Part shown: piece after piece, positions 2,820 through 20,421 of the stretch
How positions within the stretch are numbered: position 1 is the stretch's first letter
How the letters are laid out: each line of letters starts with the position of its first letter
Virus record (IMG/VR): IMGVR_UViG_3300025141_000967
Location: 1-20,777 of that record
DNA length: 20,777 nt
Strand: one strand, 5' to 3'
Source: a virus
The notes under the pieces: generated by a model
What the model was told of the DNA's origin: nothing
The model's database searches: none
Seen by the model: the letters and a program-made list of their open reading frames with translations, nothing else
Made by a program: the position numbers and the translations under genes

Positions 2820-3611
2820 GTGGCAACGAATGTAACGTGGACACAGCCGGAAAATCCCCCACCTCCCTTATTTACAGGGGCTCGTGAAAGGGATTTTGTT
2901 AAGCAAGTAAATGACGAGGTAATTGAACGCGTCATTGGACAGGCAATTCTTTATTATCCTGTGAGTCCCAAGTATACGAACTATCATCCCCTTTATGGCG
3001 AAGCTATTCATAAAAGCTTCTTGCCTCCGGTACATGTTCAGGCACTCATCTCATGGGATGGACAAGAAACGAGCACCACCAATTATGGAATTGATAGGCG
3101 ATCTAAGATTACTATCCATTTTCATAAGCGGCGCCTTACTGAAGATCAAGATTTACAAGTGCAAGAAGGAGATTACATTCTTTACGGACGCCTTTTCTAT
3201 GAAGTAGTAACACTCAATGAGCCTCAACGCCTTTTTGGGCAAGTAGATCACAAGATGGAAATTCAAGCTACATGCATTCGAGCCCGCGACGGCTTATTTG
3301 AGGAGCCGGCAGCACCTACAGTGTCCATTCCTAAGTACCAACTAGCTCAAGAAAAGGTTAATAATGTATGTGTACTTACGATCCCCGATGATTGTAAGAT
3401 ATGTGTACCTAAATTATCTGCCGCTGATGTGGATTCTTTAGATTATCGTACCCTTCAAGAGTTTGTGGCGGAACCTTGCAAGTATAAGGGGTATCAATTT
3501 TACTTAACGGCCGCTGGGCCCGCACCAATAGCGCCGTTTTTGATTTCTAATAAATGGTATTTTAATGAGAACTGCGTGTGGTACGTCAGTCCTTTTTATA
3601 GTACGACATAG
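2820..3611 (+). CDS. Neck protein, T4 gp14-like
   Basis: This 263-residue protein is the likely second neck/head-tail connector protein. Sequence cues are ERVIGQAILYYPVSPKYTNY followed by HPLYGEAIHKSF (the 'Y.p...d.lYGE' pattern of gp14 relatives), a beta-rich middle with RRSKITIHFHKRRL, and GDYILYGRLFYEVVTLNEPQ, typical of neck and head-closure folds. The length is close to T4 gp14 (about 256). It starts with GTG 15 bases after the gp13-like stop, with GGGGAG upstream. The C-terminus carries several Cys residues (CVLTIPDDCKICVP) of unknown role. The assignment also rests on position between gp13-like and gp15-like genes. Confidence 0.77.
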   Translation: MATNVTWTQPENPPPPLFTGARERDFVKQVNDEVIERVIGQAILYYPVSPKYTNYHPLYGEAIHKSFLPPVHVQALISWDGQETSTTNYGIDRRSKITIHFHKRRLTEDQDLQVQEGDYILYGRLFYEVVTLNEPQRLFGQVDHKMEIQATCIRARDGLFEEPAAPTVSIPKYQLAQEKVNNVCVLTIPDDCKICVPKLSAADVDSLDYRTLQEFVAEPCKYKGYQFYLTAAGPAPIAPFLISNKWYFNENCVWYVSPFYSTT

Positions 3612-4587: not shown

Positions 4588-7527
4588 ATGTCAGTGAGAA
4601 AATTTAAGTTTGTATCCCCTGGAGTATTTGTTAAGGAAATTGATAATTCCCAATTACCCGCTTTACCGCGTGAAGTTGGGCCGGTTGTCTTTGGTAGAGC
4701 CGAAAAAGGGCCGGCAATGCGCCCCGTTCAAATCGACTCGTTATCGTCTTTTGTAGAGACTTTTGGGAATCCAATTTTTGGATGTGGAAATAGTGATCAG
4801 TGGAGAGCAGGGCCCTCCAATGCTGCACCTTCTTATGGCACGTATGCCACGGTTGCCTATTTAAAAAATCGTAGCCCTCTAGTGTTTGTGAGACTAGCGG
4901 GAATTGAAGCCAACGGCTCTACCCCCGGCGGCAAAGCTGGCTGGCAAGCTACTGCTGCCCCGATTATGACATCGAACACGGCTCTTAATGGAGGCGCCTT
5001 CGGCTTATTTATGATCCCCTCTGCTTCAAATAAAGGAGAGTTGGGGACAGGATCTCTGGCAGCTATTTTTTATGCCACCACAGGATCCATTTCCTTAAGC
5101 GGTACCCTCGTTAACGATAGCGGCACCGTTGCTGCCAACCAAGCCACAGGAACGTGCGGCCTTTTCGAATCTCAGTTTGATAATAGTGGCTTTACCATCA
5201 TTGTTAAGAACGGGGAGGGAGACGTTCAGGAGACTGTTCCTTTTGATTTCTCTTTGAATTCTCAAATTTTTATTCGCGAAGCCTTCAACACCAACCCAGT
5301 GTTAGCTAACACTTCGAATAATGTAACGAAGCCGGCTAATCGTAAAACTTATTGGCTCGGGGAATCTTTTTATCGCAGCGTAAAGGATCATGTAGGACTT
5401 AATACTGCTGGCCAAACCTATGGTGTAATTCTCGGCCTTGAGTCGGGGAGTATATCTCAAGGGACGAAGCGGATGCCACTAACCCAAGGGGAAAGTGGCT
5501 GGTTCATCGGACAAGATTTGGGATCAGCAGGGACATATAACGCCCTTACAGCTCAAAAACTTTTTAGACTTGTTGGACTTGAAAGTGGACAATGGAATCA
5601 AGGGAACTTAAAAGTGTCTATTACTGACGTTGCTCCTTCTACCAATGCGGCTAAACCATACGGAACTTTTAGCGTGCAGATTCGCATGATTAATGATAAC
5701 GATGCAGTTTTGGGCCCGGTGGAGCAATATAGTAATGTCAATTTGGATCCATTCTCCCCTAATTATATCTCACGAAAAATAGGCGATTCCTATAGAGTAT
5801 GGGATGAGAATACCACGCGTTATCAGACGTATGGGATGTATCCCAACCAATCGCGCTATGTGCGCGTGCAGGTAGATGACGGTGTGCGAGATGGCACCAC
5901 CAATGCGGCTTATGTGCCCTTTGGGGTTTTCGGGCCTGTGCGATATACGGGATTTACCCTCGCATCTGGATCGGATGTGGTTAGAACTCTTGGCGCTTCA
6001 ACTGCGTTTAGCGGAGTTTTTGCGCAGGGGATTAATAACGTCCCTGATAGTTTGGCTAATGCAAATGAATTCTTCGTACCCGGCTTATTGACTGGTTCCG
6101 ATCATGTGACAGCCGCAAACAGCTCGTCGCTGTCCGCATCGTTTGTATTTCCAGCCGTTCCACTCCGACAAAACAGTGGGACGCCACCTCCAGGATCGAC
6201 TCAGGAAGATGCTTATTTTGGAGCTAATACTAATAGTGATGGCAATTCGTTTGAACAGTCAATCCCGGATATCTTGCGACGAAAGCCTGATAATTTGGAC
6301 GACAATGCAGAGAGCGATTCCGTCGGTACGGTAGCTTGTTTGGAATATTCTTGGGTATTTACTTTGGATGATATTAGCGGCTCGAGCACTGCCACGACGA
6401 CAGTGCTACCTGTTGGTACTTATGTCTCAGGCTCACGTCAGCTCGGAACTTCGTATACCGCAGTAGGGGGCACTCCCACCGCTGTTATTGATGTGGGATT
6501 AAATAGTTTTACAACTGTTTTTAACGCCGGCTTTGATGGATTGAATATCCTAGAAGCAGCGCCCTTCCGCAATACGTTGCTTGCAGCCGACACGGAGCCC
6601 ACTACGAATTATGCATATGCCACTATAGAGCGCGCCATGGATACGGTGAGCGATGCGGATATCGTGGAGTGTAATTTGATGACACTTCCAGGCTTAACTG
6701 AGAACACATTAACTAAAAAGTTGATGGATACTTGTGAAGCTCGAGGCGATTCGTTAGCAATCATTGATTTAGATGGCGGCTATATTCCGCCTACGGAGAA
6801 TGTTGCGGCATCGGATTCCACACGCAATGGCAGCTTGGCAGAGGTTATTAATAATTTGAAACAGCGCCAGCTAAATAATAGCTATGGTTGCTGTTATTAT
6901 CCATGGGTGATGATCGTTGACGACTTTAATAATGGAGGTACCTTAGTGGTACCGCCATCGGTAGCAGCACTGGGCACCTTTGCCAGCAGTGAAGCTCAAA
7001 GTGAATTGTGGTTCGCACCAGCGGGTTTTAATCGCGGCGGCTTGACAGTGGGAAGTGCCGGAATTCCTGTCTCCAACGTCACGCAACGGCTAAACCAGCG
7101 CCAGCGTGATTCAATGTATGACATTAACATTAATCCCATTGCTACCTTTCCTGCTGAAGGAATTGTAATATATGGACAGAAGACATTGCAAATAACGGAT
7201 TCTGCTCTAGATAGAATTAATGTCAGACGATTGATGATTTATGTTAAACGTGAAATTTCACGCATTGCTGCACTCTTATTGTTCGATCAAAATGTGCAGA
7301 GTACATGGAATAGATTTTTGGGACAAGTCGAGCCTTTCTTGCAGAGTGTGAAAACGCGCTTGGGATTGACAGACTTTAAGGTGGTACTCGATACTACCAC
7401 GACAACGCCCGATTTAATAGATAGAAACATCATGTATGCAAAGATTTTCTTGAAGCCCGCGAGAGCTATTGAATTCATTGCATTAGATTTTGTTATTACT
7501 CGTACGGGTGCTGGTTTTGAGGATTAA
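4588..7527 (+). CDS. Tail sheath protein, T4 gp18-like (oversized)
   Basis: This is the contractile sheath subunit. The N-terminus reads VSPGVFVKEIDNSQLP, the classic sheath opening, followed by VGPVVFGRAEKGPA. The C-terminal conserved domain (about residues 640-979) contains FDGLNIL, a Cys/Tyr-rich segment, PAEGIVIYGQKTL near residue 856, RINVRRLMIYVKREI, and a final strand-rich block typical of the inner sheath domain that binds the tube. At 979 residues it is far longer than T4 gp18 (about 659). The extra length lies in the middle (about residues 90-640), which is rich in Ser, Thr, Gly and Asn and looks like inserted surface domains. The ATG start has a strong AAGGAG upstream. Confidence 0.93.
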   Translation: MSVRKFKFVSPGVFVKEIDNSQLPALPREVGPVVFGRAEKGPAMRPVQIDSLSSFVETFGNPIFGCGNSDQWRAGPSNAAPSYGTYATVAYLKNRSPLVFVRLAGIEANGSTPGGKAGWQATAAPIMTSNTALNGGAFGLFMIPSASNKGELGTGSLAAIFYATTGSISLSGTLVNDSGTVAANQATGTCGLFESQFDNSGFTIIVKNGEGDVQETVPFDFSLNSQIFIREAFNTNPVLANTSNNVTKPANRKTYWLGESFYRSVKDHVGLNTAGQTYGVILGLESGSISQGTKRMPLTQGESGWFIGQDLGSAGTYNALTAQKLFRLVGLESGQWNQGNLKVSITDVAPSTNAAKPYGTFSVQIRMINDNDAVLGPVEQYSNVNLDPFSPNYISRKIGDSYRVWDENTTRYQTYGMYPNQSRYVRVQVDDGVRDGTTNAAYVPFGVFGPVRYTGFTLASGSDVVRTLGASTAFSGVFAQGINNVPDSLANANEFFVPGLLTGSDHVTAANSSSLSASFVFPAVPLRQNSGTPPPGSTQEDAYFGANTNSDGNSFEQSIPDILRRKPDNLDDNAESDSVGTVACLEYSWVFTLDDISGSSTATTTVLPVGTYVSGSRQLGTSYTAVGGTPTAVIDVGLNSFTTVFNAGFDGLNILEAAPFRNTLLAADTEPTTNYAYATIERAMDTVSDADIVECNLMTLPGLTENTLTKKLMDTCEARGDSLAIIDLDGGYIPPTENVAASDSTRNGSLAEVINNLKQRQLNNSYGCCYYPWVMIVDDFNNGGTLVVPPSVAALGTFASSEAQSELWFAPAGFNRGGLTVGSAGIPVSNVTQRLNQRQRDSMYDININPIATFPAEGIVIYGQKTLQITDSALDRINVRRLMIYVKREISRIAALLLFDQNVQSTWNRFLGQVEPFLQSVKTRLGLTDFKVVLDTTTTTPDLIDRNIMYAKIFLKPARAIEFIALDFVITRTGAGFED

Positions 7528-8228: not shown

Positions 8229-9122
8229 ATGACAAGAAAAAGTAATGAGGAGCGTTTGGGCCTTTCCCCCGGTGCGAAAGGAACGGCTGATGCTCCCGCT
8301 GCGTATGCAGAACAAGAAAATCATAGCTCTGGACTGAGTTATGTAGCACCTACTCACTTAATAGAGTTGCCCTCTCAAGGGAAGTATTATCCTCTCGATC
8401 ATCCTTTACATAATATAAAGGAAATTGAAATCAAAGAAATGACAGCTAAAGAAGAGGATATCCTAACATCCCAATCCTTTATCAAGAAGGGTGTCGTCTT
8501 TGACAGGCTTTTAACGAGTTTGATTATTGATAGAAGGGTTAGACTAGAAGATCTTCTCATCGGAGATAAGAACGCGCTGTTGATTGGAGCACGAATTAAT
8601 GGATATGGTGCCGATTATCAAGTGGGAGTAGCATGCGAGATGTGCAATTCAACCGAACAGGTTACATTCGATCTCGCCGCCTGTCCACATAAGCCCCCCC
8701 TCGATTTGAGCACCATTGAGGAGCCGGAATATGCAGAGGCGATATCCGAAGGCGAGAGCCCGGGCATCTTTTATGTACTTCTCCCCAAGTCCGGAGTGAC
8801 ATTGGGAATTCGGCTCTTAACAGGGAAGGATGAAAAGAGGACGACGGCAGCTGAAGAGATGAGGAAAAAACAAAAACTTCCTGAAGCTAGCTTAACCCAT
8901 CATTTTAAAACTATTATTGTTTCGGCTAATGGATCTACGGAGGCAAGTGACATTCGCGACTTTGTTGAAGTAATGCCAGCTTTGGATTCTAAATTTTTGC
9001 GTAAAGCTTTTCTTAAGATTACGCCCAATGTCGAAATGAGGCAGGAGTTCGTCTGCGAGAATTGCGATTACGAACAGGAGGTGGAGGTACCTTTTACCTC
9101 CACGTTTTTTTGGCCTGAGTGA
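8229..9122 (+). CDS. T4 gp26-family baseplate/tail assembly protein with two CxxC knuckles
   Basis: This 297-residue protein matches the T4 base-plate family that includes gp26. Near residues 46-55 is IELPSQGKYYP, at 66-80 IEIKEMTAKEEDILT, and at 109-130 LLIGDKNALLIGARINGYG; these are the family hallmarks (LPS.G..Y, MT..dEdil, gD...ll..RI..yG). Cys136-x2-Cys139 and Cys276-x2-Cys279 could together bind zinc. The N-terminal 40 residues look disordered. In T4, gp26 acts in baseplate hub assembly; here the gene sits between tube and tape measure, the usual place of tail assembly chaperones. The last codons overlap a hairpin and a run of seven T, and a short ORF continues in the +1 frame, so a minor frameshifted product of about 347 residues is possible. 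The start is ATG with GCGAGG upstream. Confidence 0.8.
   Translation: MTRKSNEERLGLSPGAKGTADAPAAYAEQENHSSGLSYVAPTHLIELPSQGKYYPLDHPLHNIKEIEIKEMTAKEEDILTSQSFIKKGVVFDRLLTSLIIDRRVRLEDLLIGDKNALLIGARINGYGADYQVGVACEMCNSTEQVTFDLAACPHKPPLDLSTIEEPEYAEAISEGESPGIFYVLLPKSGVTLGIRLLTGKDEKRTTAAEEMRKKQKLPEASLTHHFKTIIVSANGSTEASDIRDFVEVMPALDSKFLRKAFLKITPNVEMRQEFVCENCDYEQEVEVPFTSTFFWPE
9081..9111 (+). terminator. Terminator-like hairpin and T7 run inside the gp26-like coding end
   Basis: A perfect 9-bp stem (9081-9089 with 9095-9103, 5-nt loop), one G, then seven T at 9105-9111 make a textbook intrinsic terminator. It ends 11 bases before the gp26-like stop codon. It could terminate or attenuate transcription, or act as a slippage/frameshift element for the ORF that continues in the +1 frame. 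Its structure is certain; its role is not. Confidence 0.7.
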
Positions 9123-9129
9123 CGACTAT

Positions 9130-9273
9130 ATGAAAAGCGTCTACGAGCAATTTCATGCCCTCAAATATTTCGGTGGCTGGAGTTTTATCGAGGCATACAA
9201 TCTTCCCATTCAATTACGCAACTGGTTCATAGAGAGGTTGGTGAAGCAAATGAACGATGACGCTAAAAAATAA
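9130..9273 (+). CDS. Small ORF after gp26-like gene (47 codons), candidate frameshift extension or gp51-like protein
   Basis: The ATG-initiated ORF encodes 47 residues beginning MKSVYEQFHALKYFGGWSF, then EAYNLPIQLRNWFIERLVKQ. The block 'eaYnLPi.lRnWf...L' resembles short proteins found after gp26-type genes in T4-like phages (including gp51-like baseplate assembly proteins), though I cannot verify this. There is no good Shine-Dalgarno before the ATG, unlike almost every other gene here. The same frame is open upstream across the T7 run, so a ribosome or polymerase slip there would fuse it to the gp26-like protein through G-L-S-D-D-Y. It may be made by coupling, by frameshift, or both. A terminator follows immediately. 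Confidence 0.7.
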   Translation: MKSVYEQFHALKYFGGWSFIEAYNLPIQLRNWFIERLVKQMNDDAKK

Positions 9274-9280
9274 CAGCACC

Positions 9281-9311
9281 TAAAGGGGCATCGAGAGCCC
9301 CTTTATTTGTT
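9281..9311 (+). terminator. Intrinsic terminator after the small ORF
   Basis: A 9-bp perfect stem (9281-9289 with 9297-9305, 7-nt loop, GGGGC/GCCCC core) is followed by a T-rich tail (TTTGTT). It lies 7 bases after the stop codon of the small ORF and closes the neck-sheath-tube-gp26 unit ahead of the tape measure genes. Confidence 0.75.
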
Positions 9312-9353: not shown

Positions 9354-9692
9354 ATGGAAGATAAGGATTTAGTCCCCACAACAATAGATTTTGCCGAAGC
9401 GCGCAACGCAGAAGGCAACCTTAATGAATCGTGGTGGCTTAGTTTTGGGGCTATTCTACGTTGGATAATGCCCTCTTTATACAAGGGCTCCGTCTTTCCC
9501 CTCCAGGTAAAAGGAAGCGCGGCCGAAGTATCTAGCTTTGCGAATGTTTTATCGAAAGAGAAAAACTATCTTAAATCATGGAAAGATAACGGTCTTGATA
9601 ATCCGCTCACATATCGCAACAAGTCTAAGTTGAACGGCGCGATCTCTCAATTTGAAAGGGTAACGGGACTCAGGTGGCCATTTACCAAATAG
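9354..9692 (+). CDS. Small conserved-looking tail protein preceding the tape measure
   Basis: This is a 112-residue protein of unknown function. Cues are WWLSFGAILRWIMPSLY (an amphipathic helix), FPLQVKGSAAEVSSFANVLS, GLDNPLTYRNKSKLNGA and a C-terminal FERVTGLRWPFTK. I believe the pattern 'v.G...ev.sFa..L..Ek.Yl......GLd.p.ty..k..L......Fer.TGl.WPf' recurs in T4-like phages as an unassigned small protein, but I cannot search for it. The ATG has a strong GGTGGAGGTGG upstream, and the gene lies between a terminator and the tape measure gene. A role in tail core or tape measure handling is only suggested by position. Confidence 0.8.
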   Translation: MEDKDLVPTTIDFAEARNAEGNLNESWWLSFGAILRWIMPSLYKGSVFPLQVKGSAAEVSSFANVLSKEKNYLKSWKDNGLDNPLTYRNKSKLNGAISQFERVTGLRWPFTK

Positions 9693-19263: not shown

Positions 19264-19574
19264 CGTATTATGACAAACTAGTTCGGGATAGAATCCCCGA
19301 AATCCTACAGAAGAAAAATAAAGAATTTGTAGCGTACAAGGCAGCAGATGGGGATTACTTCCGCTATTTGAAAAGGAAACTCATTGAAGAAGTCGATGAG
19401 TTTTTAGAGTCACCTTCATTGAAAGAGTTGGCAGATGTTCAAGAAGTTCTCAACGCCATTCTTAAAGATATGGATTATGTGCAAGCAGATTTGCGTCGGG
19501 AACGTGCTCTTAAAATAGAAGAACGCGGCGCTTTTGATGAGCGTTGGATTTTGGGGGAAGTGAAAGATGATTAA
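19260..19574 (+). CDS. MazG-type nucleoside triphosphate pyrophosphohydrolase
   Basis: This 104-residue protein should hydrolyse (d)NTPs to monophosphates and pyrophosphate. It opens with YDKLVRDRIPEIL, the standard N-terminus of the small MazG-like family. The metal-binding helices are E43-E44-V-D-E47 (EExxE) and E56-L-A-D59 (ExxD), the all-alpha NTP pyrophosphatase signature. The end reads ERALKIEERGAFDERWIL, also typical of the family. The ATG overlaps the polymerase stop by four bases (ATGA), and a consensus promoter lies 100 bases upstream, so it can be made with or without the polymerase. In a replication cassette it could clean up the nucleotide pool or alter host alarmone levels; the substrate cannot be told from sequence. 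Confidence 0.9.
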   Translation: MTYYDKLVRDRIPEILQKKNKEFVAYKAADGDYFRYLKRKLIEEVDEFLESPSLKELADVQEVLNAILKDMDYVQADLRRERALKIEERGAFDERWILGEVKDD

Positions 19575-20421
19575 TATCATCGGCATAGGATCCGCAGGAT
19601 GCGCTGTGGCTGATGCACTGCGGGCGTATGATACGGAGAACTATGAGTCCTATAAGATAGACGTGGGCTTACCTAAAGGTAAGAAGTGTTTTAGTGTAGC
19701 TCCTCGGATCAACCCTGAAGACTATGAGACTAAATTCCCAGCTCGTGTGGCGACAGCCCTTGCAAAGATTCGCGGTGACGTATTAGTAGTTATTGGGGGA
19801 GGCGGCGCAATTTCTAGTGCTGCTCTTCGAGTGTTGGAGTGTGTTACCTACAACAATAAAGTTGAGGTGTTCTATATTAAGCCGGATGAGAGTTTCATTA
19901 GTGAGGGGGCGATTATCTTAGATAAGATAGTGTACGGTATCTTGCAAGAGTACGCACGATCCGGCGCCATCGATAGAATGTACATGGTATCTAATGGTGA
20001 GATTGAGCGTGTAGTGGGAAACATCCCCCTCTCTTCTTACTACGAGAAGTTAAATGACATCATGGCTTCTACCTATCATATGATGAATGTGTACAAAAAC
20101 TCGTCGCCCGTCATTTCTAATCTCACCCAAGTTCCCACCCTCTCCCGTCTTTCGACGATAGGAGTAGCTACCTTTGAAAAGGTGGAGGATCAAATGTTCT
20201 TTCCGTTGGATTATGTGAGCGAGAAAGTATACTATTTTGCGATTAATAAGGAGCGATTGGATAAAGATAAAGAATTATTAGGAAAAATTAAATTAAGAAT
20301 TAAACAAGCAGATGCTACTATTAAGACAGGGTTTGGAGTGTACGCCACTTCTTATCCAGATGATTATGTCTACGTGGTGGCAAATGCCAAAATTATACAA
20401 GGAGTACAATATGATGACTAA
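19567..20421 (+). CDS. Candidate divergent FtsZ/tubulin-superfamily protein
   Basis: This is a 284-residue protein with no certain assignment, but its order of elements follows FtsZ. It has an N-terminal strand and Gly-rich turn INIIGIGSAGCAVADAL (compare FtsZ IxVIGVGGxGxNAV); GDVLVVIGGGGAISS at residues 70-84 in the place of the tubulin signature loop GGGTGTG; KVEVFYIKPDESF for the following strand; a long helix; DRMYMVSNGEIERVVGNIP at 136-154 (compare FtsZ 'VDTLIVIPNDRLLEIV...P'); a helix SSYYEKLNDIMAS; and SNLTQVPTLSRLSTIGVAT at 184-202 (compare 'LDFADVKTIM..KG.A.MG.G'). The catalytic Asp pair of the T7 loop is absent. It overlaps the MazG-like stop by eight bases. An alternative is another Rossmann-like nucleotide-binding protein. 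Confidence 0.62.
   Translation: MINIIGIGSAGCAVADALRAYDTENYESYKIDVGLPKGKKCFSVAPRINPEDYETKFPARVATALAKIRGDVLVVIGGGGAISSAALRVLECVTYNNKVEVFYIKPDESFISEGAIILDKIVYGILQEYARSGAIDRMYMVSNGEIERVVGNIPLSSYYEKLNDIMASTYHMMNVYKNSSPVISNLTQVPTLSRLSTIGVATFEKVEDQMFFPLDYVSEKVYYFAINKERLDKDKELLGKIKLRIKQADATIKTGFGVYATSYPDDYVYVVANAKIIQGVQYDD

Follow-up and report, generated by a model that had tools for sequence, protein, structure and literature searches.

A candidate programmed +1 frameshift would give short and long tail assembly chaperones from one gene in a T4-related phage and its relatives

The use of a frameshift to build tails is a trick of most tailed phages, and the lambda gpG/gpGT-type tail assembly chaperone frameshift was reportedly described by Xu, Hendrix and Duda in 2004. 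The lambda gene lies between the tail tube and tape measure genes, and a -1 shift near its 3' end gives a short chaperone and a longer form with a C-terminal domain. A review of tail chaperones named only the archaeal virus HSTV-2 as very likely to use a +1 shift for this gene, and T4 as the exception (PMC5009743). T4 gp26 and gp51 are treated in the literature as T4-like tail assembly chaperones, as far as citations of Vladimirov, Gautam and Davidson (2022) indicate; in some T4-like phages a short gene reportedly coexists with a longer, fused one (Vladimirov et al. 2022, as cited in PMC10885494), and polyT -1 sites in T4-like chaperone genes are mentioned as cited work in PMC12846349. Among +1 systems, a close one is the release factor 2 gene (prfB), which has a (C/U)UU_U slip codon with a stop codon (UGA) in the A site and an internal Shine-Dalgarno (SD) sequence 3 nt upstream, and whose shift is autoregulatory. 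In addition, an upstream hairpin next to the E site was shown to stimulate a +1 shift at CUUUGA on 70S ribosomes in vitro; the stimulation reached about 60% of that by an internal SD and was seen only when RF2 was absent (Huang, Cho and Chang 2018, PMC6321510). In the literature we found hairpin-stimulated +1 frameshifting described for constructs only.

We analysed an IMG/VR virus record of 20,777 bases (hereafter the window) from a T4-related phage, in which a gp23-like capsid protein (PF07068, E 6e-61), a tail sheath protein and a family A DNA polymerase are T4-related markers. The gene of interest is the following:

8229..9122, + strand: zero-frame gp26-like gene, putative short form of the tail assembly chaperone, 297 aa (PF12322, phrog_150, AlphaFold2)

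Its product matched PF12322 (T4_baseplate, the T4 gp26/gp51 family; E 3e-12, 47.1 bits, above the curated cut-off of 24.5) and phrog_150 (baseplate hub; E 2e-15). A preliminary description had placed the gene between tail tube and tape measure, and PHROG matches of both flanking genes agree with this (tail tube, phrog_4542, E 1e-20; tape measure, phrog_167, E 1e-8). The AlphaFold2 model had a mean pLDDT of 86.7, with a core above 90 and a helical extension of lower confidence, and structure matches in BFVD included T4-like baseplate hub assembly proteins. A sequence search of the PDB gave no matches, and in a Foldseek search of the PDB the highest probability (0.38) was that of the HK97 tail assembly chaperone 2ob9, with a non-significant E of 0.94. 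Elsewhere in the window, the tail sheath protein (4588-7527) is unusually long (979 aa), with conserved sheath domains in its C-terminal part only; a 112-aa ORF between chaperone and tape measure (9354-9692), also present in a relative (L003), has no Pfam or PHROG match; and a 284-aa ORF (19567-20421, start MINIIGIGSAGCAVADAL) without a Pfam match has an IGGGGAISSA motif that recalls FtsZ/tubulin-like nucleotide binding.

The 3' end of the gp26-like gene reads ACG TTT TTT TGG CCT GAG TGA and contains the following features:

9105..9113, + strand: putative slip site TTT TTT TGG, with the proposed P-site codon at 9108-9110 re-pairing at 9109-9111 ((T/C)TT_T consensus)
9120-9122, + strand: zero-frame stop TGA, eight bases past the T run, which the shift would bypass
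9112..9273, + strand: +1-frame extension GLSDDYMKSVYEQF...DDAKK plus stop, putative gp51-type C-terminal domain of the long form (conservation, dN/dS, profile match)
9281..9305, + strand: terminator-like hairpin TAAAGGGGC...GCCCCTTTA followed by a T-rich stretch, just past the extension (structure scan)

Re-reading of the sequence bore out several points of the preliminary description: the seven T lie at 9105-9111; skipping one base gives the expected 347-residue fusion (...T-F-F-G-L-S-D-D-Y-M-K...); a -1 slip reaches a stop at once (TTG GCC TGA); and the 47-codon ORF at 9130-9273, whose ATG is 7 nt past the gp26-like stop, has no SD of its own (best anti-SD energy -2.2 kcal/mol), against -6.4 to -10.4 at eight of ten other starts checked in the window. 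A -1 slippery heptamer (X_XXY_YYZ) followed by an open -1 frame was not found at this site. The hairpin at 9281-9305 may reduce expression of the tape measure gene compared with that of the chaperone; terminator-like structures 3' of the +1 ORF were seen in 29 of the 164 loci described below.

To the window we added a relative of about 50% identity found by direct search (L003), four phage records and 158 IMG/VR contigs, the latter from two profile searches that gave 80 and 78 further usable loci (the first set comprises n = 86 loci). Of the resulting 164 gp26-like genes, 148 are distinct in the 30 nt upstream of the site. L003 has a +1 ORF with the same domain and no start codon near its beginning, and the +1 frame is likewise open across the stop in the Microcystis phage Mel-JY01, a 484-kb uncultured phage, the Flavobacterium phage immuto and the Streptococcus phage GXN1. 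As the preliminary description had suggested, the overlapping frame was compared throughout the relatives; in all 164 genes it passes the gp26 stop and goes on to encode the same domain, which is more than chance would give. The conserved pattern is FFGL[ST]xxYxxxVYEQFFxLKYxGGWSFxEAYNLPxxLRxWFxxRL, or a variant with FFTLP. Differences 3' of the stop are distributed 31/18/51% over codon positions 1/2/3 of the +1 frame, and the median dN/dS of the extension is 0.086 (35 pairs). None of the 164 genes of the window's clade showed the two ORFs clearly apart and with a ribosome site each. Judged by these sequence comparisons, the gp26-like gene and the 47-codon ORF form a single recoded gene. In public records the extension has been mis-annotated or missed: it is a separate hypothetical protein in Mel-JY01 and immuto, and no gene is annotated for it in LIS04.

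The slip site itself is strongly conserved. Across the 164 loci it reads TTTTTTTGG (110), TTTTTTTAC (38), TTTCTTTGG (8), TTCTTTTGG (2) or TTCCTTTGG (2), with four singletons. When representatives below 60% identity were considered, the second slip codon was TTT in all 54 Phe cases, as against 76% TTT elsewhere in the genes (P = 4.5e-7, if the representatives are independent). Conservation of the T run had been proposed as a check: (T/C)TT_T is kept in 162 of 164 sites, and the run has only three T in twelve loci and four in three, with the +1 frame open all the same. Stops in the +1 frame occur as near as 5 nt 5' of the TTT (L042, L065, L078 and L083), so that the shift should take place at or after the codon preceding TTT. 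In addition, the next Pro codon is CCT in 76 of 79 cases, whereas CCT makes up only 24% of the Pro codons elsewhere; such a bias would follow if ribosomes were by then reading the +1 frame (G-L). The A-site codon is UGG or UAC in nearly all loci, and the stop follows 2-5 codons further on. L006 and L009 are the exceptions to a slip from UUU or CUU to UUU, and a UUU to UUC slip is still possible in both. At the slip position of L009 (GXN1, 3200-3230) the sequence is TTC TTT CGT, in which TTT CGT recalls the influenza PA-X +1 site.

Two elements 5' of the slip site, absent from the preliminary description, are candidate stimulators:

9076..9083, + strand: SD-like AGGAGGTG inside the gene (AGGAGG at 9076-9081), proposed stimulator (conserved GGAGG)
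9081..9103, + strand: 9-bp hairpin GTGGAGGTA-CCTTT-TACCTCCAC, proposed stimulator with 1 nt between its end and the T run (synonymous-column shuffles support this class of hairpin)

The mean best anti-SD energy 5' of the slip site was -8.75, as against -3.89 for the gene control and -5.46 +/- 0.32 for random synonymous sequences. Codon choice is restricted here as well: all 35 Glu residues at codon -7 are encoded by GAG (40% elsewhere), and all 32 Asp residues at codon -1 by GAC (34% elsewhere). The hairpins of the relatives sit between GGAGG and the slip site and end 0-5 nt before TTT (for example, AGTTTGCCG-ATGA-CGGCAGACT in L053 and TCTGCCG-TTTA-CGGCAGA in L017); their mean score of 8.23 exceeded all 200 within-column synonymous-codon shuffles (5.74 +/- 0.58). 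The second set of loci, which was not used in forming the idea, repeated both results (hairpin, 10.33 vs 6.63 +/- 0.59; SD, -7.44 vs -4.87 +/- 0.29). By the score used, about half of the loci have a weak hairpin only. Base-pair covariation in a fixed register is weak because the hairpins sit in different registers, and the evidence for the hairpin comes therefore from the synonymous shuffles. SD and slip site are 15-25 nt apart, and in many loci this distance falls to 1-4 nt only if the hairpin is looped out; by inspection, the SD tends to sit further upstream when the hairpin is longer. Downstream structure gave no conserved signal (mean z -0.13 over 58 loci). These results suggest that GGAGG and the hairpin probably stimulate the shift, and the in vitro result for the upstream hairpin (PMC6321510) makes such stimulation plausible here, without proving it. 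That the two elements act in the manner proposed below has about even odds.

The joining of the two ORFs by a programmed frameshift, as read in the preliminary description, is supported by the conserved +1 frame, the slip consensus and the homology described below. It had left a +1 slip, a -2 slip and a transcriptional event open, and the relatives favour a +1 ribosomal slip and speak against the other two. In the window, the T run directly follows the hairpin at 9081-9103, the strongest terminator-like site of the whole window, and a T run right after a strong hairpin is a known context for hairpin-assisted transcriptional slippage, in which RNA polymerase would slip on the seven T to give mRNAs with altered numbers of U. 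Nevertheless, the clade-wide mechanism cannot rest on this run, since the 15 loci with runs of only three or four T have the same open +1 frame; slippage was thus rejected as the general mechanism and appears improbable as an account of the data, while it may still contribute in the window itself. A -2 ribosomal shift at the same codons, of a kind known from phage Mu, would add one Phe and re-pair perfectly two bases back in 149 of the 164 loci; in six loci (TTCTTT, TTCCTT), however, the middle base would mismatch whereas +1 re-pairing holds, and we give this shift very little credence.

The extension could also be a separate protein made from its own ATG (9130) by termination-reinitiation at an overlapping or nearby stop, considering that this ATG is so close to the stop in the window and that a similar domain in L008 follows a stop-start overlap (TAATG). 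Yet, besides the missing SD, the first 20 +1 codons contain no ATG in 47 of the 86 loci of the first set and no ATG, GTG or TTG in 28 of them. The Met of the window is not kept (it aligns with I, T, S, Q and L in the relatives), and conservation begins 5' of the ATG, at F-G-L, so we consider separate translation quite improbable. Homopolymers are error-prone in sequencing, and an in-frame fused gene with an error in its T run would look the same in a single record, but 164 genes share the frame relation, some of them from isolate genomes and some with no homopolymer at the site; the chance of such an error is negligible, and the relatives already exclude it. A programmed +1 ribosomal frameshift yielding short and long chaperones from one gene is, on the sequence data, the best-supported mechanism and in our view highly probable.

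The homology of the extension connects this gene to both T4 proteins. PF12322 matched T4 gp26 (E 9e-64) and residues 1-201 of the 249 residues of T4 gp51 (E 4e-52), and the gp51 residues past this match align with the small gp51 proteins of cyanophages. In a profile-profile comparison, the C-terminus of T4-like gp51 matched the +1 domain (95.3%, E 2.3e-8); when T4 gp51 was compared as a single sequence with either the +1 domain or the core, no useful result was obtained. With PF12322 in both proteins and a gp51 C-terminus that matches the extension, T4 appears to encode the short and the long tail assembly chaperone separately, in two genes. The result agrees with the statement on short and fused genes as relayed in PMC10885494. 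In Syn1, P-HM1, phiM7, SRB7757, ACP17 and OLIVR5 the same domain can be reached in the -1 frame, which has no stop across T_TTT_TTC or T_TTT_TTT, and SP-15 and LIS04 have +1 arrangements. In L095 and L098-L103 (T4-like cyanophages and others), most of which are annotated with two genes, the -1 frame leads without a stop via T_TTT_TTC/T into the small 'gp51', a sign that the recoding may exist there in a -1 version. The jumbo phages RAS14 (L010), XacN1 (L097) and Atu_ph07 (L096) have T_TTT_TTT or T_TTT_TTC near the end of the gp26-like gene and a similarly patterned domain in the -1 frame; the annotation gives separate hypothetical proteins.

We infer the occurrence and efficiency of the shift, the mechanism of the stimulators and the chaperone roles as follows. 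The P-site tRNA-Phe at UUU_UUU_UGG (tRNA-Leu in the CUU variants) would slip forward by one base and re-pair with UUU, in the manner of release factor 2, and GGAGG and the hairpin would help, either from a position beside the E site or by drawing the SD near to it. The products would be the 297-aa short chaperone and a 347-aa long form, presumably minor, with the gp51-type C-terminal domain. By analogy with lambda gpG/gpGT, the short form may coat the tape measure protein and the long form may recruit tail tube subunits.

The lambda G/GT analogy of the preliminary description gained support from gene order and from the homology to T4 gp26/gp51. As in lambda, the putative shift lies near the 3' end of a gene between tail tube and tape measure, and in 164 of 164 genes the predicted long form is the short form plus a C-terminal domain in an alternative frame; lambda differs in its -1 direction and slippery sequence, whereas here the shift would be +1 at (T/C)TT_T, in a PF12322 protein and with an upstream rather than a downstream signal. 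With T4 the gene shares its Pfam family and an extension homologous to the gp51 C-terminus, but T4 has two genes, cyanophages and others a -1 site at T_TTT_TTC/T, and the window's clade a +1 site. The slip codon, the open +1 frame and the internal SD resemble those of prfB; in contrast to prfB, the A-site codon is the sense codon UGG or UAC, a hairpin separates the more distant SD from the slip codon, and both products appear useful. The construct of Huang, Cho and Chang (PMC6321510) also combines a +1 shift with a hairpin adjoining the E site, but it was engineered for in vitro use, while the arrangement here is natural and conserved, with a putative effect.

What is new here looks confined to the +1 direction and to the upstream cassette; a paper on T4-like chaperones appeared in 2022. 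The chances are evenly balanced that an internal SD, an E-site hairpin and (U/C)UU_U together form a natural +1 cassette, in which the hairpin loops out the spacer or mimics the SD duplex, and that the T4-like chaperone gene has moved among +1, -1 and gene duplication with its Phe-Phe junction unchanged. Being natural and conserved, the SD-hairpin-(U/C)UU_U arrangement offers a candidate case of +1 frameshifting stimulated by a hairpin, and with +1, -1 and two-gene solutions in one gene family, conversion between recoding solutions becomes traceable.
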